Assembly (NCBI RefSeq): GCF_016907715.1
Contig: NZ_JAFBCM010000001.1
Location: 2,728,001-2,792,000 of the forward strand
Length of the DNA stretch: 64,000 nucleotides
Direction: 5' to 3'
Origin: Tenggerimyces flavus
GTDB lineage: Bacteria > Actinomycetota > Actinomycetes > Propionibacteriales > Actinopolymorphaceae
The notes beneath the pieces are model-generated. The model did not search any database. It saw only the letters and a list, made by a program, of their open reading frames with translations, and was not told the origin of the DNA. Made by a program: the position numbers and the translations under genes. Shown one piece after another: positions 4,447-59,163 of this stretch. Within the stretch, counting starts at the first letter, position 1. Every line of letters starts with the position of its first letter.

Positions 4447-4908
4447 ATGGGTACCGAACAGTCGATCGAGGTCGAGGTTCCGGTCACGACCGCCTACAAC
4501 CAGTGGACTCAGTTCGAGGACTTCCCGCACTTCATGTCGGGGGTGGAGTCGATCAGCCAGCTCGACGACCAGCGCAACCACTGGGTCACCAACATCGCCG
4601 GTGTACGCCGCGAGTTCGACACCCGCATCACCGAACAGGTCCCGGACGAACGCGTCGCGTGGACCACCGAGAGCGGCTCGCCCCGCCAGTCCGGCGTGGT
4701 CACGTTCCACCGCATCTCGCCCACGCAGACCAAGGTGATGGTGCAACTCGACCTCGAGCCCGAGAACCTCGCCGAGAAGATCGGCGACAAGGTGGGCATC
4801 ATCGACGCCCAGATCAAGGCGGACCTTGGCAAGTTCAAGACGTTCATCGAAGCACGCGGCGCCGAGACCGGCGCCTGGCGCGGCGACGTCGACCGACCCA
4901 CGCCATAG
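4447..4908 (+). CDS. SRPBCC family (polyketide cyclase/dehydrase-like) protein
   Basis: 153-aa single-domain protein of the START/Bet v1 fold: N-terminal beta strand (SIEVEVPVTTAYNQW), helix-rich FEDFPHFMSGVESI, a central antiparallel sheet and a long C-terminal helix. It matches the COG5637-type branch, which binds small hydrophobic ligands; its ligand is unknown. The ATG follows GAAGGAGCAGT. It diverges from the prenyl synthase/CarH-like operon across the 4391-4406 palindrome, so light-linked co-regulation is plausible but inferred. Repeat copy B follows its stop directly. Confidence 0.78.
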   Translation: MGTEQSIEVEVPVTTAYNQWTQFEDFPHFMSGVESISQLDDQRNHWVTNIAGVRREFDTRITEQVPDERVAWTTESGSPRQSGVVTFHRISPTQTKVMVQLDLEPENLAEKIGDKVGIIDAQIKADLGKFKTFIEARGAETGAWRGDVDRPTP

Positions 4909-4912
4909 GGCG

Positions 4913-5177
4913 TGATTTCAGGTGTTGGTGGGCGACGCTGGCCTGCGAATGACGGAAGTGCCTGTCCTGCTGGGGAGCCTTGGGAGTGCGACGTCTCGAG
5001 TGATCTGAGCGGGAAGCACTCCGTAGGTGAAGCGTTGTGGTCGCCTTACCCGGCCAGTGGCCGCTCTACCTGGCGTCCACCCCACGTAAAGCGGCTAATG
5101 ATCATGTAAACATGATCGTTGGCCCCAGGTCGGCCGGACCGGGCGAACCAACGGCCGGACGAAAGATCGAGGCTAAG
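4913..5177 (-). repeat. Interspersed hairpin repeat, copy B (inverted, long form)
   Basis: Reverse-orientation copy of the family seen at 1532-1800. The hairpin is at 5093-5124. Two of its arm positions differ from the consensus, yet they remain T-G pairs on the + strand, so a transcript from that strand would still fold. It abuts the SRPBCC stop. Confidence 0.85.
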
Positions 5178-14922: not shown

Positions 14923-17064
14923 ATGGATACGACCTGCGCGAAGACGAGCAGGCGAGGTTTCCTCTACGGTTCCGCGGTTGCCGCCGGATCCGTCGTCCTT
15001 GCCGCCTGTTCCGGAAGTTCCAATGCTCCTCAAGGCTCCGGTAACGGTGGCCAGTCCAGCGGTACGCCCGCCTCGAAGGCCAAGGGCTCGGAGACCGAGC
15101 CGATTGCACCCCCCTCGTCGTTCTCCGAGTCTCCGCTTCTCGCCGAGCAGGTCAAGGCCGGCAAACTCCCCGCGGTCGAGGAACGGCTGCCGGAGAAGCC
15201 GTACGTCGTTCCGCACAAGTGGATCGAGAAGGGCAAGTACGGCGGCAGTATCCGGCTGATGATCCCGAGCACCAGCGACGGCGACGTCCGGCAGATGAAG
15301 CAGTACATGTACGGCCACTCGTTGCTGCGTTTCGTCAACGACAGCTTGGACATCGTTCCCGGACTCGTCGAGAGCTGGGAGTCCAACGAGGAGCAGAGCG
15401 AGTGGACACTGCACTTCCGGAAGGGCCTGAAGTGGTCGGACGGGAAGCCGTGGACGACCGCGGACATCATGTTCTGGTGGAACGACATGGTGCTCAACGA
15501 GGAGCACACCGAAATCCCGCCGGACGAGTGCAAGGCGGCGAACGGGAAGCCGGCGACGTTGAAGGCGACCGACGAGGTCACCTTGGTGATGACGTTCGAG
15601 ACGCCGGCACCGCTGACGCCGGATCGCCTTGCTGGATACACCAAACGCGGCAACGGCTCGACGTGGATGGAGCCCAAGCACTATCTGCAGCAGTTCCACC
15701 CGACGTACAACAAGAGCGCGTCGAAGGAGTGGGCGAGTCTCGGTGGCGCGTTCGAGACGAAGCGCAACCACGCGAGGAACCCCGACTGCCCGACGATGAC
15801 GGGCTGGCGCGTGACGTCGTACCGCGACAGCCAGCAGGTGGTGTGGGAGCGCAACCCGTTCTACTGGGTCGTGGACCGCGAGGGTCAGCAGCTGCCGTAC
15901 GTCGACAAGCTCACGTACACGGTCGTCGGTGAGCCGCAGGTCGGAAAACTCCAAGCACAGCAGGGGAAACTCGACTACGTTCACGGTCCGTTCGCCGGCT
16001 TCGGGCTCGCCGACATCTCCGGACTCCGCCAGACCGAGAAGCAGAGCAACCTCGTGCTGCGGATGTGGGACACCGGATCGGGCACCGGGTCGATGTTCTT
16101 CTTCAACCAGGACGCGAAGGACCCGAAGCTGCGCGAGCTGATCCGCGAGCCGAAGTTCCGGCAGGCGCTGTCGCACGCGTTCAACCGGCCCGACGTGAAG
16201 AAGTCGATCTACTACACCCTCGGTGATCCGACGACGGGCACGATGGGTGTGAAGACGATCGAGTACGTCGTGAGCGACGAGGGGCGTTCGGTCTACGAGA
16301 GCTGGCGCGACAGCTACGTCAAGTACGACCCGGAGCTGGCGAAGTCGATGCTCGACGAGCTCGGGGTGGTCGACAAGAACGGCGACGGCAAGCGGGAGTT
16401 CGCCGACGGGAGCCCGCTGACGATCTGGATGGACTACCAGTCGAACGCGGCCCCGGACCACATCGCGAAGAACGACCAGCTGAAGCGCGACTGGGAGGCG
16501 ATTGGCCTTACGGTGAAGCTGAATCCGATCCCCGCGGACGGCTGGGACCCGCGCTGGCAGTCGGGTCAGCTCGTGTCGCACTGCTCGTGGGAGGTGTCGA
16601 GCGCGCGCGACCACCTGACCCAGGCGGCGTGGCTCGTTCCGGTGGAGCCCGCGCGCTGGGCGCCGTTGCAGGGGCAGTGGTACAACGTGCGCGGCACGCC
16701 GGCGGAGAAGGAGCAGGCCGACGTCGACCCGTACAAGCGCACCCCGCCCCGGGCGGCGCCGGAGCCGGGCGGGCCGGTGGAGCAGTTGTGGAAGCTGTAC
16801 GACCAGGCGAAGGTCGAGGTCGACGCGACGAAGCGGCACCGTTTCGTGTGGGACATGATCAAGATCCACATCGAGCACGGCCCGTTCTTCATGGGCTCGG
16901 TCGCCAACCCGCCGGCGCTGATCCTGGCACATCGGGACCTGAAGAACGTTCCTGACAAGGAGAATCTCGCTCAGGGCGGCCTCGTCGGTCCGTGGCAGCA
17001 CCCGTCGCCGGCGGTGTACGACCCGGAGGCCTACTTCTGGACGAACCCGGAGCAACACGCGTAG
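14923..17064 (+). CDS. ABC transporter substrate-binding lipoprotein (family 5, peptide type), copy 1
   Basis: 713 aa. The N-terminus carries a twin-arginine motif (SRRGFLYG) followed by a lipobox LAAC near residue 28, then a Ser/Gly-rich linker: a Tat-exported lipoprotein. The rest is SBP_bac_5-like (EQSEWTLHFRKGLKWSDGKP, then FRQALSHAFNRPDVKKS), which normally captures oligopeptides or oligosaccharides. It is longer than classic DppA/OppA. No permease or ATPase gene is adjacent, so it is an orphan receptor. It is inserted between tsaE and tsaB and is closely similar to the gene at 21839. A strong hairpin follows its stop. Confidence 0.9.
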   Translation: MDTTCAKTSRRGFLYGSAVAAGSVVLAACSGSSNAPQGSGNGGQSSGTPASKAKGSETEPIAPPSSFSESPLLAEQVKAGKLPAVEERLPEKPYVVPHKWIEKGKYGGSIRLMIPSTSDGDVRQMKQYMYGHSLLRFVNDSLDIVPGLVESWESNEEQSEWTLHFRKGLKWSDGKPWTTADIMFWWNDMVLNEEHTEIPPDECKAANGKPATLKATDEVTLVMTFETPAPLTPDRLAGYTKRGNGSTWMEPKHYLQQFHPTYNKSASKEWASLGGAFETKRNHARNPDCPTMTGWRVTSYRDSQQVVWERNPFYWVVDREGQQLPYVDKLTYTVVGEPQVGKLQAQQGKLDYVHGPFAGFGLADISGLRQTEKQSNLVLRMWDTGSGTGSMFFFNQDAKDPKLRELIREPKFRQALSHAFNRPDVKKSIYYTLGDPTTGTMGVKTIEYVVSDEGRSVYESWRDSYVKYDPELAKSMLDELGVVDKNGDGKREFADGSPLTIWMDYQSNAAPDHIAKNDQLKRDWEAIGLTVKLNPIPADGWDPRWQSGQLVSHCSWEVSSARDHLTQAAWLVPVEPARWAPLQGQWYNVRGTPAEKEQADVDPYKRTPPRAAPEPGGPVEQLWKLYDQAKVEVDATKRHRFVWDMIKIHIEHGPFFMGSVANPPALILAHRDLKNVPDKENLAQGGLVGPWQHPSPAVYDPEAYFWTNPEQHA

Positions 17065-20501: not shown

Positions 20502-21548
20502 GTGAGTGACGAGCCGCTGGTCCTGGGCATCGAGACATCCTGCGACGAAACCGGAGTCGGAATCGTTCGCGGCTCGACCCTGCTCGCCGACGCGATCGCG
20601 TCCAGTCTCGACGAGCACGCGCGGTTCGGCGGCGTCGTCCCCGAGGTCGCCAGTCGCGCGCACCTCGAGGCGATGGTGCCCGGCATCGAACGGGCCTGCA
20701 AGCAGGCGAACGTACGACTCGACGACGTCGACGCGATCGCCGTCACCAGCGGCCCCGGCCTAGCCGGCGCGCTGCTCGTCGGCGTCGCGTCAGCGAAGGC
20801 CCTCGCGCTCGGGCTCGGCAAGCCGCTGTACGGCGTCAACCACCTCGCCGCGCACGTCGCCGTCGACACGCTCGAGCACGGCCCGCTTCCCGAACCCTGC
20901 TTGGCGATGCTCGTCTCCGGCGGCCACTCCTCCCTGCTCCTCGTCGAGGACGTCACCCAGAAGATCGACCCGCTCGGCTCTACCATCGACGACGCCGCGG
21001 GCGAGGCGTTCGACAAGGTCGCGCGGTTGCTCGGACTGCCGTTCCCCGGTGGCCCGTACATCGACCGCGAGGCCAAGCAGGGCGACAACGCGTACGTCAC
21101 GTTCCCGCGCGGCCTCACCGGGCCGCGCGACTTCGAACGGCATCGCTTCGACTTTTCCTTCTCCGGCCTCAAGACCGCGGTCGCGCGCTGGGTCGAGGCC
21201 CGCGAACGCTCCGGTGAACCGATTCCGGTCGCCGACGTCGCGGCCTCGTTCCAGGAGGCGGTCTGCGACGTCCTCACCCGCAAGGCCGTCGACGCCTGCA
21301 AGAACGCCGGCGTGACCGACCTGCTCATCGGCGGCGGCGTCGCCGCGAACTCCAGGCTGCGGGTGCTCGCGGAGGAACGCGCCGGCAAGGTTGGCATCCG
21401 CGTCCGCGTACCGAGGCCCGGCCTCTGCACCGACAACGGCGCGATGGTCGCCGCCCTCGGCGTCGAGCTGGTGTCCCGTGGCGTCAGCCCCTCCGCCCTC
21501 GACCTGCCGGCGGACTCCTCGATGCCGGTCACGAGCGTGCTCGCCTAG
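20502..21548 (+). CDS. tsaD: tRNA N6-adenosine threonylcarbamoyltransferase TsaD
   Basis: 348 aa, catalytic subunit of the t6A complex. It starts at GTG ([20 protein letters not shown], the canonical N-terminus). The metal site is H-x3-H in [33 protein letters not shown] and the C-terminal [11 protein letters not shown] plus CTDNGAMVA follow in order. Complete and normal in length. Repeat copy C begins within a few bases of its stop. Confidence 0.97.
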
Positions 21549-21695
21549 CCTCGGGATTTCGTCCGGCGGTGGGTTCGACCGGTCCGGCCCCGCCCTGTCC
21601 CGCCCTGCCCTGGGGCCATTGATCATGTTTACATGATCATTTGCCCCTTTACGTGGGGTGGACGCCAGGTAGAGCGGTCACTGGCCGGGTAAGGC
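21549..21695 (+). repeat. Interspersed hairpin repeat, copy C
   Basis: Medium-length copy directly after the tsaD stop. The TTCGTCCGGCGGTGGGTTCG leader, hairpin around 21612-21647 with loop TTTA and two arm mismatches, and the block TTTACGTGGGGTGGACGC are conserved; the tail is lost after CGGGTAAGGCG. Confidence 0.85.
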
Positions 21696-21719
21696 GCGAG
21701 GCCAGCCTCGGCGTTCTCG

Positions 21720-21838: not shown

Positions 21839-23974
21839 ATGACCGACCCTGGCCTCAGCCGACGTACTCTGCTGCGGGTGTCCGCGGTCGCGGCGGGCAG
21901 CGTCGCTCTCGCCGCGTGCTCCAGCAACAACCCGGGCAGCACCGGCAGCGGGAACGGCAACGGCACGTCCTCGCCGACCAACTCCGCCGCTGTCGGCTCG
22001 ACCGTCGACCCGCTCCCGAAGCCCGCGAAGTTCAACGAGGCGCCGCAGCTCGCCGAGCAGGTCAAGTCGGGCAAGCTCCCGGCCATCGCCGAGCGGCTGC
22101 CGGAGAACCCGTACGTCATCCCGCACAAGTGGGTCACCCCCGGCAAGTACGGCGGCCAGATCTTCACGTTCACGCCCGGTACGGAAGAGGGCTCGCACGC
22201 GGAGTACATGTACGGCCACTCCTTGCTGCGCTACCTGAACGACGGCCAGGACATCGGGCCCGGACTCGTCGAGAGCTGGGAGTCCAACTCCGAGGCGACC
22301 CGCTGGGAGCTGCACTTCCGCAAGGGCCTGAAGTGGTCCGACGGTCAGCCGTGGACGACCGAGGACATCATGTTCTGGTGGGAGGACATGGTCCTCAACG
22401 AGGAGCACAGCGAGGTCCCGCCGGACGAGGCCCGTTCCGGCAAGGGCACGTTGATGAAGATGACGGCGCCCGATCCGCTCACGATCGTGATGGAGTTCGA
22501 TGCCCCGGCCCCGTTGACCGCCGACCGGCTGGCGATGTGGGTCAACCGCGGGAACGGTCCCGGCTGGATGGAGCCGAAGCACTACATGAAGCAGTTCCAT
22601 CCGAAGTACAACCCGAAGACGCCGAAGACCTGGGCGTCCGACGAGGGCCAGTTCGACCAGAAGCGCGCGTGGACCCGCAACCCCGACTGCCCGGTGATGA
22701 CGGGCTGGCGCTGCAAGTCGTACGACGAGGGCAAGATCGTCACGTTCGAACGAAACCCGTACTACTGGTGCGTGATGCCGAACGGCGACCAGCTGCCGTA
22801 CCTCGACGGGATGACGCTCACCGCGGTGGCGCGGGCGGAGATCCAGAAGCTGCAAGCCCAACAGGGCAAGGTGAACTTCGCGTACGGCGGCTTCACCGCG
22901 CTGTTCCTGGCCGACGTCGCCGGCTTCAAGCAGGCCCAGTCGAAGAACCACCTGCGCGTACTGCTCTGGGACGCCGGCGACGGCAGCGGTTCGCTGGTCT
23001 TCTTCAACCAGGACTACTTCGAGCCGAAGCTGCGCAAGCTGTTCCGCGACGCCAAGTTCCGGCAGGCCCTGTCGCACGCGTACAACCGCAAGGAAGTGCG
23101 CCGCGCGGTCTACTACGACACCGGTGAGCTGACGACCGGGACGATGAGCCCGAAGGCGATCGAGTTCCAGATCGACGGCGAGGCGAAGAAGAACTACGCA
23201 GCATGGCGGGACTCCTTCATCGACTACGACCCGGAGCTCGCGAAGAAGATCCTCGACGAGATCGGCATCGTGGACAAGGACGGCGACGGCAAGCGGGAGA
23301 TGGCGGACGGCACGAAGCTCCGGATCCACCTCGACTACCACGCCGACTCCGCGCCCGAGCACGTGTCGAAGAACAACCTGCTGGCGCGCGACTGGAACGC
23401 GATCGGCATCGACACGAAGCTCAACCCGGTGGCGCCGGAGGGGTACGGCGACCAGTGGCGGTTCGGCAAGCTGATGACGAACACGAACTGGGAGACCGGC
23501 GACGGGCCGAACTGCCTCGTCTACCCGCAGTGGATGGTGCCGATCGAGTCGTCTCGCTGGGCGCCGTTGCAGGGCGAGTTCTACAACGTCCGTGGGACGC
23601 CCGCGGAGAAGGAGCAGCTCGACCTCGACCCGTTCAAGCGCACGCCGCCTCGGATGGAGCCCGAGAAGGGTGGCCCGATCGAGAAGCTGTGGCAGCTGTA
23701 CGACCAGAGCAAGATCGAGCCGGACGCGGTGAAGCGTCGTCAGCTGGTGTGGGAGATCGCGAAGGTGCACATCTCCGACGGCCCGTGGCTGCTCGGGGTG
23801 TGCGCGAACACGCCGTACATCGTGCTGGTGCACGAGGACATGAAGAACGTGCCGGAGAAGGAGAACCTCAAGCTCGGTGGCTTCGCGGCCCCGTGGATCC
23901 ACCCGTCGCCGGCGGTGTACGACCCGGAGACCTGGTACTGGACGAACCCGGAGGCGCACACCACCACGCCGTAG
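21839..23974 (+). CDS. ABC transporter substrate-binding lipoprotein (family 5, peptide type), copy 2
   Basis: 711 aa. Signal LSRRTLLRVSAVAAGSVALA then lipobox AAC marks a lipoprotein with a twin Arg. Collinear with the gene at 14923 over its whole length, including WESNSEATRWELHFRKGLKW, WTTEDIMFWWEDMVLNEEHS and FRQALSHAYNRKEVRRAVYY, so the two are paralogues. Binding of oligopeptide or glycan is expected from the family. No transporter permease is nearby. A promoter and tandem boxes lie upstream, and it converges on a GntR gene 16 bp away that may regulate it. Confidence 0.9.
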   Translation: MTDPGLSRRTLLRVSAVAAGSVALAACSSNNPGSTGSGNGNGTSSPTNSAAVGSTVDPLPKPAKFNEAPQLAEQVKSGKLPAIAERLPENPYVIPHKWVTPGKYGGQIFTFTPGTEEGSHAEYMYGHSLLRYLNDGQDIGPGLVESWESNSEATRWELHFRKGLKWSDGQPWTTEDIMFWWEDMVLNEEHSEVPPDEARSGKGTLMKMTAPDPLTIVMEFDAPAPLTADRLAMWVNRGNGPGWMEPKHYMKQFHPKYNPKTPKTWASDEGQFDQKRAWTRNPDCPVMTGWRCKSYDEGKIVTFERNPYYWCVMPNGDQLPYLDGMTLTAVARAEIQKLQAQQGKVNFAYGGFTALFLADVAGFKQAQSKNHLRVLLWDAGDGSGSLVFFNQDYFEPKLRKLFRDAKFRQALSHAYNRKEVRRAVYYDTGELTTGTMSPKAIEFQIDGEAKKNYAAWRDSFIDYDPELAKKILDEIGIVDKDGDGKREMADGTKLRIHLDYHADSAPEHVSKNNLLARDWNAIGIDTKLNPVAPEGYGDQWRFGKLMTNTNWETGDGPNCLVYPQWMVPIESSRWAPLQGEFYNVRGTPAEKEQLDLDPFKRTPPRMEPEKGGPIEKLWQLYDQSKIEPDAVKRRQLVWEIAKVHISDGPWLLGVCANTPYIVLVHEDMKNVPEKENLKLGGFAAPWIHPSPAVYDPETWYWTNPEAHTTTP

Positions 23975-29184: not shown

Positions 29185-29250
29185 GGCCAATGATCGTGTT
29201 TACATGATCATTGGCCGCTTTACGTGGGGTGGACGCCAGGTATTGGGGTG
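29185..29250 (+). repeat. Interspersed hairpin repeat, copy D (short form)
   Basis: Only the hairpin (29185-29216, loop TTTA, one G-T pair) and the GCTTTACGTGGGGTGGACGC plus CAGGTA block survive; the sequence then diverges. The likely original 3' end of the HNH gene runs into it from the other side. Confidence 0.85.
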
Positions 29251-29366: not shown

Positions 29367-30287
29367 TTATGCTGCGAGCTGCTGATTCAGGTACTCGTTG
29401 CGGACTTGCTGGGGAGTCCGGTAGCCGATTCCTGAGTGGATTCTTCGGCGATTGTAGAACAGTTCGATGTAGGTCGCAATGTCGTCACGGGCTTTCTTGC
29501 GTGTTGGATAGGCGGTGCGATAGACACGCTCGACCTTCAGCGTGGAATTGAACGATTCGGCAAGTGCGTTATCGTAACAAGTCCCGGTCCGTCCCATCGA
29601 GGCGCGCATCGCGAAATCCTCGATCCTGGCCGCGAACTCACCAGAGGTGTATTGCGTTCCGCGGTCAGAGTGGAAAATGCAATCTTCCGCGAGATCGTGA
29701 TTTCGCGCCGCCATGCCGAGCGCGTCGGCGACAAGTTGAGCGCGCATGTGGTCGGCCATAGCATAACCAACGACTTCTTTGTTGAAACAATCGATCACAG
29801 TCGCCAGATAGAGCCACCCTTCCCAGGTATGAATGTAGGTAATATCGCCCACGAGCTTCGTTCCCGGTGCCGCGGCGGTGAAGTCGCGGCGGACCAAGTC
29901 CGGGACGGCCGGGTCGACATCGCCGGGGATCGTGGTAACCCTGTACGGACGCGGCTGGCAGGGCATCAAGCCCAGCTCACGCATCAGGGCGCGGACCAGC
30001 TCCTCACCGACCTGCTCGCCGGCGCCGACCAGCTCGACGTGGATACGCCGGTATCCGTACGTGCCGTCGGACTCGTCGAACAACGCCCGAATCTTGACCT
30101 TCAGATCCTCGCGCCGTCGGACGGTCGCACTCATCGGCCGACACCGCCATTCATAGAACCCCGATGTCGACACGCCAAGCCAGCCGCACATCTTCCGAAC
30201 ACTAGGGACATTTCGTGGAGCATCAGCCGAATCGTGGTCGGCGACCATGGCAGCACACTCATCGACGACCTCGTACCTGCTGGTCAC
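29367..30287 (-). CDS. IS3 family transposase OrfB (DDE integrase core)
   Basis: 306 aa. An N-terminal HTH_21 segment (YGYRRIHVELVGAGEQVGEE) precedes the DDE retroviral-integrase fold: first Asp in KLVGDITYIHTWEGWLYLAT, second Asp in HSDRGTQYTSGEF, Glu in NALAESFNSTLKVE. Ends FYNRRRIHSGIGYRTPQQVR. GTG start overlaps the orfA stop (GTGA), so it is made by coupling or by -1 frameshifting; a CTAAAAC stretch in late orfA could serve as the slip site. All catalytic residues are present. Confidence 0.93.
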   Translation of the reverse strand: MTSRYEVVDECAAMVADHDSADAPRNVPSVRKMCGWLGVSTSGFYEWRCRPMSATVRRREDLKVKIRALFDESDGTYGYRRIHVELVGAGEQVGEELVRALMRELGLMPCQPRPYRVTTIPGDVDPAVPDLVRRDFTAAAPGTKLVGDITYIHTWEGWLYLATVIDCFNKEVVGYAMADHMRAQLVADALGMAARNHDLAEDCIFHSDRGTQYTSGEFAARIEDFAMRASMGRTGTCYDNALAESFNSTLKVERVYRTAYPTRKKARDDIATYIELFYNRRRIHSGIGYRTPQQVRNEYLNQQLAA

Positions 30288-30577
30288 CGTTGCTCCTTCG
30301 CGAAGTATGCCGCCGCTCGTTTTAGGAAGTTGTTCTCCATCTCCAGCTCGCGAACTTTCCGCTCGAGTTCCCGTAGTCGCGCCCGCTCAGACAACTCCAA
30401 CGGCGACTCCTCGCCGACGTGCGTTTCGCGGTAGGCCTTCACCCAATTGCCCAAAGTGGTCTCACCGACCCCGATTTCACGCGCGACATCGGCAATTCGG
30501 CGGCCGCTCTCGACCACCAGCCGAGCCGCCTCCTCGCGAAACTCCGGCGTGAACGTGCCCTTCCTTCTCGCCACCAC
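30284..30577 (-). CDS. IS3 family transposase OrfA (HTH subunit)
   Basis: About 97 aa. The HTH is FTPEFREEAARLVVESGRRI, then DVAREIGVGETTLGNWVKAY, followed by a leucine-zipper-like helix (LRELERKVRELEMENNFLKR). GTG at 30577 or 30574 with AAAGGAG upstream. The reading frame has no stop upstream and continues into the HNH gene, so a fused 532-aa product is possible. Confidence 0.88.
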   Translation of the reverse strand: MVARRKGTFTPEFREEAARLVVESGRRIADVAREIGVGETTLGNWVKAYRETHVGEESPLELSERARLRELERKVRELEMENNFLKRAAAYFAKEQR

Positions 30578-31882
30578 CAATTCTCCTTTCCAGACGGGAC
30601 CGTATGCGGTCCGCAGTCCGGAAAGTGGGAGGCACGCCAGGGTGAGGCGGTGGTTGCGGAGTGGTTGTTGGTGGGGGTCTATCCAGTCTGGGGGTAAGAA
30701 CTCCGGTAACCCATCGAGCGCGATGCGGACTTGCCACGCGCCTTGGTGGATCAACCGGTGGTGGTACCCGCAGAGCAGGACGCCGTTGTCGCGGGTAGTG
30801 GGCCCGCCCTTACTCCACGGAACCACATGATGGGCGTGACACCAACCAGGAGGCCGATCACAACCGGGAAACGCGCAGCCACCGTCTCTGAGCTCGAGCA
30901 ACCGGCGCAGCTTCCCCTGGAAGAGTCGCTGCTGGGTGTCGGTCAGCAGTGTGACGCGGCCGGGCTGGTCGTCGGGCTTGACCAAGAATGCCCGGTCTGC
31001 TTCACACATGAGTTGGTCGACGAGTTTGCGCGAGAGTTCGATCCCGGTGTGCAGGGTCCGCCCACCAGTCTGGGTGACGGTGACGACCAGCTGGGTCGGG
31101 TTCCCACCATGGGAGGGCACCAGCTTCTCAGCCAACAACCGGCGGCAGGCCTCATCCAGAGCGTCGACGTTGCGTTGTTCGGGGAGGCGGGTGTCGCGGC
31201 CGTCGGGTCCGGGCTGGGGTGCGGCGAGTGGGTCGAGGACGAGTTTGAGGCGTTCCCCGACCACTTTGGGGAGTCGGGCGGTGACTCGCCATGTCCCTGA
31301 CGTGGTGTCGAAGGTCATGCGGAGGAACCGGTCGCGTTCGGCGCTGGCTTCTTCTTGTTTGAGTTTCAGTTCCAGGACCTGGTCGGCAAGGTCCGGCGCG
31401 ACGGTCTCCAAGAGCCGGTTCCCGACCTTGCCCAAGACTTTGGGGTCGAAGGTGGCGGCGTTCTTCAGCAGGGTGGCTTCGACCTCGGAGCGGAGTTCCG
31501 GGGTGGCGATGTGGGAGGGCAGCATCGTCACGACCCGGGAGATCACTCGTGCGTGCGGAACAGAAATCTCGCCCTCAGCCAACGCTCGAGCGGTGGCGGG
31601 AAGGTCGGCGTGGAGGTGGCTGGCCAGCTTCACCATCGCACCGGCCTCAGCCGAAGGAACACGAAGGACGCCGGCAACCCACTGCGCGGTGTTCGCCGCG
31701 CCCGCAGTGACGGCGAGGTTCCGGGCGTCGGCCTCGCGGATCAGTTCGAGCTGGCGGCCCTGGAGTTGGTTCAGCTGGGTGGCGTTGTCGAGGAGTGCGG
31801 TGGTGAGTTGGTCATCGGACATCGACCACGCCGACACACCATCGGCGGTGCCGATGGTGTTCGAGCAGGTGGTCGATTCCAT
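30284..31882 (-). CDS. DUF222 / 13E12-repeat HNH endonuclease, 3' end fused in frame to IS3 orfA
   Basis: Continuous 532-codon frame. Residues 1 to about 415 are a DUF222/13E12 protein (SDDQLTTALLDNATQLNQLQ start; helical DUF222 region; HNH module GCAFPGCDRPPGWCHAHHVV then PWSKGGPTTRDNG, LLCGYHHRLIHQG). This family is abundant in actinobacteria and of uncertain role, possibly selfish. At 30639 the IS3 terminal repeat begins, replacing the native C-terminus; translation then crosses the IS end and runs through orfA. The native tail can be traced beyond the IS at about 29260-29324. HNH residues are intact, so activity could persist. Confidence 0.85.
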   Translation of the reverse strand: MESTTCSNTIGTADGVSAWSMSDDQLTTALLDNATQLNQLQGRQLELIREADARNLAVTAGAANTAQWVAGVLRVPSAEAGAMVKLASHLHADLPATARALAEGEISVPHARVISRVVTMLPSHIATPELRSEVEATLLKNAATFDPKVLGKVGNRLLETVAPDLADQVLELKLKQEEASAERDRFLRMTFDTTSGTWRVTARLPKVVGERLKLVLDPLAAPQPGPDGRDTRLPEQRNVDALDEACRRLLAEKLVPSHGGNPTQLVVTVTQTGGRTLHTGIELSRKLVDQLMCEADRAFLVKPDDQPGRVTLLTDTQQRLFQGKLRRLLELRDGGCAFPGCDRPPGWCHAHHVVPWSKGGPTTRDNGVLLCGYHHRLIHQGAWQVRIALDGLPEFLPPDWIDPHQQPLRNHRLTLACLPLSGLRTAYGPVWKGELVVARRKGTFTPEFREEAARLVVESGRRIADVAREIGVGETTLGNWVKAYRETHVGEESPLELSERARLRELERKVRELEMENNFLKRAAAYFAKEQR

Positions 31883-31954: not shown

Positions 31955-32170
31955 CAAGCAAGCTGGGGACTCCACAAGCAACCGCAACACGGCAGCAGAC
32001 GGAAAAGGCAAGCAGGCCTGTCCCGGGGAACTGTTCCGGGGGCGGGGGCGGCGCGTGAAAAACAGGTGGCCGGACCGGGGCGAGTCAAGGGCCGCAAAGC
32101 GGTCGCGAAGCGACGCCGCCCGACTGCGAAGCCGCCGCGGCGCCCTTGACGCGCCCCGGACCGGCCACCA
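31955..32170 (+). repeat. Long inverted-repeat element, copy 1
   Basis: About 216 bp. Its right part is a large hairpin with 27-bp arms at 32065-32091 and 32143-32169 (25 of 27 pairs; arms begin GGTGGCCGGACCGGGGCG), enclosing a small TCGCGAAGCGACGCC motif. Its left part holds CACGGCAGCAGAC and a CCCGGGGAACTGTTCCGGGG hairpin. The same arrangement occurs inverted at 58937-59163. ORFs through it are Arg/Pro-rich and not credible. Confidence 0.8.
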
Positions 32171-32581
32171 CAATCGACCGCCGCCACAGCCCGACCAGCT
32201 ACTTCGCCCAAGCAGGGTTGGGTAAAGCAACATAAACAGCACACCCCACAAGGGGACGATGGGTGAAGAGGATGGGAGTGACGGGATGCGTGAGATGGCA
32301 ACCCGGTGGGCGAAGTGGCAGCCCGGTGAGTGAGAGTGGCGGGCCGACGTGTGAGGTCACGATGGTGAAGAGGGGTGGGACTTCCGGGGCATGGGGTGGA
32401 GTGACGGTCGCGCGGTGCGCGAGGTGGCCGACCGGTGGGTGAGGTGGCAGCGTGAGGTGTCGGGGGTGGTGGGCAAGAGCCCGTCCAGACGGGGACACCC
32501 TTCCGGAAACCCGCCGAAGTTCCGTAGCGGTCAGCATGCCGGCGCCAACCCCACACGCGACGCTCCGCGCGCCGGCGGACA
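32171..32581. other. Intergenic tract with degenerate GGTGGGTGAGGTGGC repeats
   Basis: No gene found. Several imperfect copies of a 15-bp unit occur: GGTGGGCGAAGTGGC near 32303, GGTGAGTGAGAGTGGC near 32326 and GGTGGGTGAGGTGGC near 32434. They look like decayed tandem repeats. The right edge is the end of an ABC ATPase remnant. Confidence 0.5.
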
Positions 32582-44445: not shown

Positions 44446-44618
44446 CCGCCGGCCTAGCCTCGATCCTTCGTCCGGCGGTTGGTTCGACCGGCCCGGCCCG
44501 GGTCGGGGGGCCAATGATCATGTTTACATGATCATTGGCCGCTTTACGTGGGGTGGACGCCAGGTAGAGCGACCACTGGCCGGGTAAGGCGACCACGACG
44601 GTTCACCTACGGAGTGCC
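44446..44618 (+). repeat. Interspersed hairpin repeat, copy E
   Basis: Best-preserved hairpin of the family: GGCCAATGATCATG, loop TTTA and perfect 14-bp complement at 44509-44540, with TTCGTCCGGCGGTTGGTTCG leader and full GTGGGGTGGACGCCAGGTAG block and tail to CGGAGTGC. It fills the gap between two convergent genes (SDR and lipase). Confidence 0.9.
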
Positions 44619-45818
44619 TTAGAGGCGTTCGAACCAGCGCAGGATCTGGGGGTAGGCCAGCACGCCGGTGGTGTTGTGGTCGACGGGGCCGACGTCGACG
44701 ATCTTCGAGTGAACGCCGTTCTGGCGCAGTTTCGCCTTGCAGCTTTCGGCATTCGCCGCTGGGACGTCGGCGTCCGCCGAGCCGACGTACATGCGGATGG
44801 GGGCGCGCGGGCGCCAGTCGGTGCAGATCTGGTCGGCGTACGCGAGGCGCGCCCGGAACTCGCCGGTGGGGTGCTTCATCAGCTCCCAGTACTCGTCCGT
44901 CAGCAGTTCGCGCGGGCTGCCCGGCAGCCCCGCGGCGATCTCCGGGAACGGGTGGGTGCCGTCCATCAACCCGTCGACCGTCCCGGCATACCGCGGCTGG
45001 AACGCCTCCGCCGGGTCGTCGTAGAGGTCCATCAGGTAACTCCACGAGGTCAGGAGGTAGGCCGTGTAGAGGGTCGCGATCTTCTTCGTCACCCGACCGT
45101 CCACCAGCGCCGGGAGCTCCACCCCGAGCGTGTCGTACGGTCCCGCCACCGGTGCCATCGCGTGCACATCGAAGCCAGGCGCCTCGCCGCGCTGCAGGGC
45201 GCGCCCGACGCTCAGCGCTCCTCGCCCGCCCTGGGAGAACCCGGTGAGGTCGACGCCACGATGCAGGCTCACGTCCCGCATGCGCGCGATCTTCTTGGTG
45301 GCTTGGAGAAGGTCGATCGACGCGCTCGTCTCGGAGTCGGTGTCGGCGTACGGATGCCGGCCCGGACCGACGCCGAGCCCGAGGTAGTCGGGTGCGGCGA
45401 CGGCGAACCCGGCGCCGGCGAACAGCAGCGACCTCGCCCGATCGGGAGCCTCGTGCAGCCTGCTCGCGGTGGTGTTCTTGGTGGCGTTCGTTCCGTGCAG
45501 GAACGTCACCAGCCGCAGCCGGCGGTCGTCGTTGCGCGGGAACGCGACGAGCCCGCTCGCGGTCGTGGGCTTGCCTTGCGGCGTGATGGTCCGGTAGACG
45601 ACGCGGTAGGCGTCGGTGCCGAACCGCGTGCGCGGGACGTCCATCCCGGAGTTGTCGAGGTAGGTCGCCAGCTCGGCGCGCGTCAGACGTTCAATGGGGG
45701 TTATCGAAACCAGGTCGCCACGCTCATGCCGTACGTCGGCGGCGGCAGGAGAGGCAACCAGGGCGAGGGAAACGGCGCCGGTGGCCAAGGCTGTGAGAAC
45801 AGTCATGCCGTTCATCAA
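44619..45818 (-). CDS. Secreted lipase (LIP-type alpha/beta hydrolase)
   Basis: 399 aa. Signal peptide of 27 residues (MTVLTALATGAVSLALVASP, cleavage near AAADV). Hydrolase features: oxyanion region TFLHGTNATKNT, nucleophile elbow GFSQGG, and late DHNTTG supplying the His. The sequence PDYLGLGVGPGRHPYADTDS is typical of the secretory lipase family (Candida LIP/bacterial homologues). Two Cys (QICTDW, ESCKAK) may pair. Extracellular ester hydrolysis is inferred. Confidence 0.88.
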   Translation of the reverse strand: MMNGMTVLTALATGAVSLALVASPAAADVRHERGDLVSITPIERLTRAELATYLDNSGMDVPRTRFGTDAYRVVYRTITPQGKPTTASGLVAFPRNDDRRLRLVTFLHGTNATKNTTASRLHEAPDRARSLLFAGAGFAVAAPDYLGLGVGPGRHPYADTDSETSASIDLLQATKKIARMRDVSLHRGVDLTGFSQGGRGALSVGRALQRGEAPGFDVHAMAPVAGPYDTLGVELPALVDGRVTKKIATLYTAYLLTSWSYLMDLYDDPAEAFQPRYAGTVDGLMDGTHPFPEIAAGLPGSPRELLTDEYWELMKHPTGEFRARLAYADQICTDWRPRAPIRMYVGSADADVPAANAESCKAKLRQNGVHSKIVDVGPVDHNTTGVLAYPQILRWFERL

Positions 45819-58852: not shown

Positions 58853-58936
58853 CTCTTCCTGTGGGCAGCTGGAGCTGTTGCGTCGGCGAGCACTCCTGAG
58901 TTTGGAACTGGCGTGGGCTGTGGCGCCGGCCGAGTG

Positions 58937-59163
58937 TGGTGGCCGGTCCGGGGCGCGTCAACAGGGGGCGCCTCTCTGAGGGGCGCTTCGCGCAGGAGGA
59001 GAGAGGCGTCGCTTCGCGATCTTCGACCCTTGACCCGCCCCGGACCGGCCACCAGTTTCATACGCGCCGCCCCACCCCCGGGAACAGTTGCCCGGGCCAG
59101 GACTGCTTGTCGTTCCGGTCTGCTGCCGTGCGTGGGTCGCTTGTGGGGCCCCCGCTTGCTTGT
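58937..59163 (-). repeat. Long inverted-repeat element, copy 2 (inverted)
   Basis: Reverse-orientation counterpart of 31955-32170. Arms at 58938-58961 and 59030-59053 pair over 24 bp with one mismatch. On the minus strand it reads CCACAAGCGACC, CACGGCAGCAGACC, a perfect CCCGGGCAACTGTTCCCGGG hairpin, GGGGCGGCGCGT, then the long arm, in the same order as copy 1. Confidence 0.8.

Follow-up and report, generated by a model that had tools for sequence, protein, structure and literature searches.

In the parts of the published descriptions drawn on here, several known systems resemble the repeat studied below. MITEPsy1 of Pseudomonas syringae is likewise a short MITE with inverted ends that duplicates CTAG or YTAA, whereas it measures 100 nt, has other ends and is thought to derive from ISPsy2; the part of its description used here mentions neither a central palindrome module nor a positioning on stop codons, both of which are features of the present element (PMC3189936). 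REPs are also dispersed extragenic palindromes and a specific target of several ISs (PMC1525189), but they are 20–40 bp long (PMC3733652), whereas the palindrome studied here is enclosed in a CTAG-bounded element, in a genome with no Y1 transposase match. The termini of GTAG-tagged REPs supply TAG stops and these repeats are favoured between convergent genes (PMC3733652), as are pneumococcal BOX/SPRITE repeats, among which BOX termini supply stops at 36 gene ends (PMC3049150); however, both differ from our element in sequence and size, and the excerpts of these sources describe no CTAG-bounded stop donor acting on two strands (PMC3733652, PMC3049150). Finally, the mycobacterial MIRU is an apparently mobile repeat that has entered a 4-nt junction between genes and hardly affects the gene, but it occupies the start codons of coupled genes (PMC12548453), whereas the element here uses stops, including shared convergent stops.

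The two kinds, MITE and REP-like palindrome, are already known. Note that no description of CTAG/stop-codon MITEs in actinobacteria was found in the literature searched, which covered few subscription papers. Starting from five copies in the window (the whole 64-kb stretch of DNA that was analysed), we consider that the repeat is a family of MITE-like non-autonomous DNA transposons, with a probability of about 0.78.

Copy number, boundaries and ends

The sequence-only reading had claimed a five-copy hairpin repeat family in the window, and all five copies are real: the 20-mer core is present four times exactly and once with one mismatch (≤3 allowed), for 0.00 expected by chance. In the source genome (8.52 Mb, single contig), the 24-base core was found in 88 + 79 = 167 copies (≤3 mismatches; reversed-pattern control 0), and it is exact in at least 100 of these 167 places among the matches listed. 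The hairpin 24-mer pattern matched at 213 places forward and at 214 in reverse (control 0), that is, at least 214 hairpin sites, because one palindrome or hairpin may match on both strands. The suggested hundreds of copies per genome are roughly right in view of these two counts, the window (5 copies in 64 kb) being denser than the genome mean of ~1.25 per 64 kb, and the reservation that no further copies might exist in the genome falls away with the 167 cores. Rfam covariance models at the gathering score had no match in the window.

All five loci previously proposed exist, with corrected limits. Copy 1 (1534–1809, + strand) is a full-length element of the main family (family I) of 276 bp with TTAG at either end, a hairpin at ~1590–1622 with one extra T in its arm, and the core at 1625–1648; its right end has a TTAG in common with the left end of a deleted copy of another element, MITE-B (1806–1871, + strand). 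Copy 2 (4905–5176, − strand) is a near full-length family I element with a left TTAG (5176–5173) and a right CTAT (4908–4905), the latter carrying the stop codon (4906–4908) of a + strand gene (4447–4908). Copy 3 (21545–21705, + strand) belongs to family I with the right arm deleted and the right end CGAGGCCAG, and its left CTAG (21545–21548) includes the TAG stop of tsaD (20502–21548). Copy 4 (29182 to about 29275, + strand) consists of the central module only (hairpin 29185–29216, and core), without family I ends, and adjoins a block of IS3-type and DUF222/HNH genes. Copy 5, the noted locus (44454–44622, + strand), is again a family I element with the right arm deleted, bounded by a left CTAG (44454–44457) and a right TTAG (44619–44622) that holds the stop of a convergent gene (44619–45815). 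Its hairpin 1 (44509–44540, + strand) has a 14-bp stem and a TTTA loop, and elsewhere in the genome an IS (IS-A) has inserted into this same hairpin; its palindrome 2 (44541–44570, + strand; GCTTTACGTGGGGTGGACGCCAGGTAGAGC) lies within the most conserved stretch of the element. The hairpin, the TTTA loop and the core are shared as claimed, but only copies 1 and 2 carry the GGCCACTGGCC palindrome without change.

Across 106 aligned copies, the left end is sharp and the right end fuzzy, and the latter was resolved by ordering the copies that face a convergent gene by their distance to the stop of that gene. Full-length copies terminate with CACCAACACCTGAAATCCCGAGG immediately before CTAG, measure 259–285 bp and have imperfect inverted ends (CTAGCCTCG..TTTC and CTGAAAT..CGAGGCTAG). 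The inverted repeats, CTAGCCTCGaTCtTTCgTCC on the left and CTAGCCTCGGGAtTTCaGG on the right (reverse complement), match imperfectly over ~16 nt; the right end, again as reverse complement, also reads CTAGCCTCGGGAtTTCaGGTG, and the family I ends are of CCTCGGGATTTCAGG-like type. Among 116 family I copies, the left end is present in 87, the right end in 56 and both in 46, with ≤6 edits allowed in the left-end scan (7 edits admitted spurious matches), and a few two-ended copies retain doubtful ends. The sequence outside these 46 elements has no conserved consensus.

As in MITEs, the elements are short, non-coding and in high copy number (the 167 cores above; 28/46 two-ended copies span 259–285 bp and the rest are shorter, many short copies being found, mostly internally deleted). 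Terminal inverted repeats are present, albeit imperfect, and a candidate target duplication is seen as CTAG at both ends of 22/46 two-ended copies (24/46 depart from it at one or both ends) and as TTAG at both ends of window copy 1. The MITE option of the sequence-only reading is thus supported by inverted ends, CTAG/TTAG flanks, sharp boundaries and unbiased orientation. From these sequences we infer transposition and target duplication; alternatively, CTAG could belong to the inverted repeat itself.

It had also been asked whether the conserved block is the end of a known IS, or whether an IS with matching ends exists. Each of the 43 right-end matches (≤3 mismatches) is part of an element that has the hairpin module nearby, and none is part of a long IS. 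A related autonomous element is usual for MITEs without strictly defining them; here, no autonomous element with family I ends was found, ~19% of the genome being read directly and the rest covered by pattern and family searches. A PF13340 partner, which we take to be a link to IS5-type transposases, was considered and rejected: PF13340 has no match in the source genome and five in a sister-genus genome (G005), at loci without the element ends of that genome.

The peptide LPGQWPLYLASTPRKAANDH, shared by predicted proteins in the window, was rightly regarded as a product of the repeat, since it is a reading of the opposite strand, exact in two copies, with one mismatch in one, four in one and a broken frame due to a stop in one of the others. 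A protein-coding repeat with a genuine shared peptide might be suspected from the open frames on the opposite strand in 4/5 window copies, but the internal stop and the four mismatches just mentioned, together with a core that shows no change, even at third codon positions, in at least 100 of 167 places among the matches listed, make this reading practically negligible. Annotators should be warned that such elements create false antisense ORFs and sit flush against true gene ends.

Position at gene ends and stop codons

Using gene calls from a purpose-written codon-usage script, and no standard caller, we placed 131 copies relative to genes: 75 lie between convergent genes, 6 between divergent genes and 1 inside a gene. 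Within tandem gene pairs, 27 copies follow the orientation of the genes and 22 oppose it (p = 0.57), showing no bias. A same-strand upstream gene is present for 70/89 left-ended copies, and the mapping against gene 3′ ends, as the sequence-only reading had advised, showed that the upstream stop coincides with bases 2–4 of the left tetranucleotide in 40/70 (36 TAG, 4 TAA) and is one base off in 3 more. In convergent pairs, the right end can provide the stop of the other gene; overall, the 46 two-ended copies supply stops to both neighbours in 7 cases, to the upstream gene only in 9, to the downstream gene only in 17 and to neither in 13.

The tetranucleotide itself is rare, with 489 CTAG observed vs 2,454 expected from composition in 866,896 bases. 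Away from elements, 323 CTAG comprise 95 stops (17 serving two convergent genes at once), 172 intergenic sites and 56 sites in genes, and among convergent gene gaps the 4-nt overlap is the commonest (19/155), both backgrounds being drawn from the same element-rich stretches. That convergent genes may overlap by four bases at their stops is described as a general phenomenon in the part of the source used here, CTAG being one of four possible tetramers (PMC2174442).

The genes upstream of elements look whole, as judged from their predicted proteins. An NCBIfam scan of 20 among 39 listed upstream proteins gave 13 matches and 7 proteins without match, and several of the matches reach nearly the end of the model: TsaD (312/314), PrmC (252/253), SigJ-type (280/281), adenosine deaminase (354/364), LacI-type (329/331) and SDR (252/253), to which Pfam adds an M55 peptidase (263/264) and an RNase II-type C-terminal domain (57/59). 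Two proteins fall short of their family model, LipL-type (381/420) and DkgA-type (260/275), both being poor-scoring matches. TsaD ends at the equivalent codon in 7/7 family relatives, none of which has the hairpin at this locus; these relatives stop with TGA and therefore show the natural gene end, not an empty CTAG.

Regarding mechanism, we suppose a trans-acting DDE transposase whose target is of CTAG/YTAR type and which would put the elements into CTAG; target copying would involve either all four bases of CTAG or the TA inside it. The duplicated CTAG would then restore a stop to the gene on each side, including the overlapping stops of convergent genes. We propose that insertion would be nearly silent and that copies would build up at 3′ ends because CTAG is rare and frequently provides a TAG stop. 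An IS630-family element reportedly transposes preferentially to TA in CTAG (Tenzen and Ohtsubo, 1991), and the IS630 family, alike in its CTAG target preference, is a candidate partner type only. The family may thereby offer a testable case in which target choice renders a transposon harmless, CTAG being rare in a GC-rich genome and its duplication regenerating stops on either strand.

The gathering of 75/131 copies between convergent genes could also be expected of a functional 3′-end RNA element or terminator under selection, perhaps a domesticated mobile element, which we judge unlikely on the whole of the evidence. A strand-specific 3′ RNA element would not be expected to give the 27:22 split within tandem pairs, which disfavours this form of the 3′-end option raised from the sequence, but a bidirectional terminator would require no orientation, and that form is not disfavoured. 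However, CTAG targeting by itself predicts the location.

The central module: conservation, folding and IS landing

The central module is made up of hairpin 1, palindrome 2 and a short tail. Under the MITE-like reading, one feature is odd for a plain MITE: the centre (0.91–0.95) is kept more strictly than the ends (0.85/0.83). Mean pairwise identity among the 28 full-length copies is 0.851 for the left end, 0.745 for the left arm, 0.907 for hairpin 1, 0.940 for palindrome 2, 0.945 for the next 26 bases, 0.839 for the right arm and 0.834 for the right end, the copies being fetched mainly from the 100 listed exact-core sites of the 167, with diverged copies under-represented.

In 59 diverse modules, 95.3% of the cells of hairpin 1 are paired, with compensatory changes at columns 7–32 (AU 23, CG 21, GC 3) and 36–65 (GC 28, CG 13). 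None of the 500 shuffles and no slid version reached the observed covariation score of 0.099; the covariation support is nevertheless modest, because the pairs with changes on both sides (6) match the shuffled mean (6.0). Folding is strong (z −5.9 to −7.7 in the four strands folded), and it speaks, with the compensatory changes and the covariation score, for the 3′-end RNA element introduced above, against which stand the modest covariation support and the absence, on inspection, of a long T tract past the hairpin: the AT-rich stem is followed by GCTTTACG, unlike an intrinsic terminator. The covariation of the module fits a DNA cruciform, an RNA hairpin and palindrome-correcting mutation alike, and our best guess is that the module is either a mobility structure or a bidirectional terminator insulating its neighbours.

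The hairpin is also a secondary landing site for two ISs. IS-A (ISL3 family; DDE_Tnp_ISL3, E = 1.5e-47) occupies at least 9 sites, one of them split, and all 9/9 lie in the hairpin, 40 of 517 first-look candidates having been scored. Its insertions are accompanied by an 8-bp duplication in the hairpin loop, TGTTTACA, which is present on both sides at 7 sites, while the left copy reads GGTTTACA at 2. IS-B (DDE_Tnp_4) was found in the 3′ arm of the hairpin at 2/2 detected sites, with 3-bp ATT duplicated. With two unrelated ISs using this hairpin, targeting of the REP kind is extended to a palindrome of an actinobacterium that lies within a MITE.

A palindrome hit by both ISs at every site found is what REP/BIME-like elements would display, and the central module might accordingly be the actual repeat, disseminated by an enzyme of its own, with the CTAG-bounded surround being secondary. 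The module is indeed the most conserved part of the element, is found without family I ends and within families with other ends, recurs in a sister genus with altered sequence, and, like REPs, serves as a target of ISs (PMC1525189), while termini of GTAG-REPs are described, in the part of the source used here, as supplying TAG (PMC3733652). On the other hand, the element is far longer than a REP and its outer ends are reproducible down to CTAG. The search advised in the sequence-only reading for a REP-associated tyrosine transposase (RAYT; Y1_Tnp, PF01797) gave no match in the source genome, with a positive control in 5/14 genomes. Hairpin 1 bears no GTAG/CGTC tag; in family I, a GTAG precedes the short GGCCACTGGCC palindrome by three bases, and a second family (family II) is without this palindrome. 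The REP-like option is thus retained as an analogy, the palindrome attracting ISs in the manner of REPs in a genome without a RAYT match; as an explanation of the whole repeat, we regard it as rather unlikely.

Related families and distribution among genomes

Many copies consist of the central module without family I ends. In family II, the central module is common to both families and the flanks differ, with right ends such as CAACAGGTCCTAG. MITE-B is a separate YTAR-bounded MITE with ends like CTAGGSCGTGTCT and GGSCGTGTCT, in which 11/14 inverted pairs are 173–194 bp apart; it adjoins several copies, and a few module copies carry a MITE-B end.

By BLAST, the repeat is absent from 37 other genomes. 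A covariance-model search, run on 293 genomes including the source genome (14 candidates scored per genome, strict filters), showed that the element family also occurs in the sister genus, where BLAST had missed it: matches were obtained in the source genome, in G005 (at least 14, i.e., all 14 scored candidates; best 4.2e-14) and, weakly, once in G261. The G005 copies follow the same plan, with the hairpin CCGTAATGATCACG-TATA-CGTGGTCATTACGG, the palindrome and ends of CTAG-GGCGTGTCC type, and in 4/9 loci read an open frame of 126–486 codons terminates at the CTAG of the element end. The single match in G261 was not counted (E = 3.6e-4 per genome, so ~0.1 expected by chance over 293 genomes); in this genome, from another family of the order, the hairpin is followed by a long palindrome, CTGTACATGGCGTGCATGCCATGTACAG. 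The lack of matches in 37 genomes by BLAST and in 290/293 by the strictly filtered covariance model speaks further against a functional 3′-end RNA element. In addition, the exact core 27-mer and the hairpin pattern had no match in a collection of genome contigs, nor the hairpin pattern in one of viral contigs, both of which may exclude the source or very near genomes.

We tentatively raise a further idea, itself improbable, that the module is a transferable cassette serving mobility or insulation, which is recognized by a putative non-RAYT factor and has been swapped between CTAG-targeting families with different ends and between two genera. Selection would then keep the module over the ends, and insertion into stop codons, including shared convergent stops, would confer near-invisibility to selection.

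The module may otherwise belong to DUF222-HNH genes, presumably of 13E12 type, which would be its mobilising partner and for which we know of no transposase role. It lies 3′ of paralogous DUF222 genes at five loci, including that of the window, and DUF222 matches number 27 in the source genome and 77 in G005 (fragments counted separately), both genomes bearing the module. However, among 15 DUF222 loci read in the source genome, the module lies within ~110 bases downstream of the longest ORF's stop in 3, elsewhere in the locus in 3 and is absent in 9, which leaves this association very improbable.

Minor observations were also made on the window. An IS3-type transposase (rve, 29367–30287) lies between the lone module and the DUF222-HNH ORF (30284–31882), whose final domain is HTH_Tnp_1, an arrangement that looks like an insertion of the IS into the gene; at four other loci of the genome, DUF222 paralogues have the module 3′ of them with no IS between. 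A second, seemingly unrelated inverted-repeat pair joins 32146–32192 with 58915–58961 (94%) and 31965–32101 with 59017–59153 (80% complementary). Finally, 15085–16928 and 21995–23829 are 72–79% identical in DNA, and the second encodes a solute-binding protein (SBP_bac_5), a match from which the two are therefore probably paralogous transporter genes.
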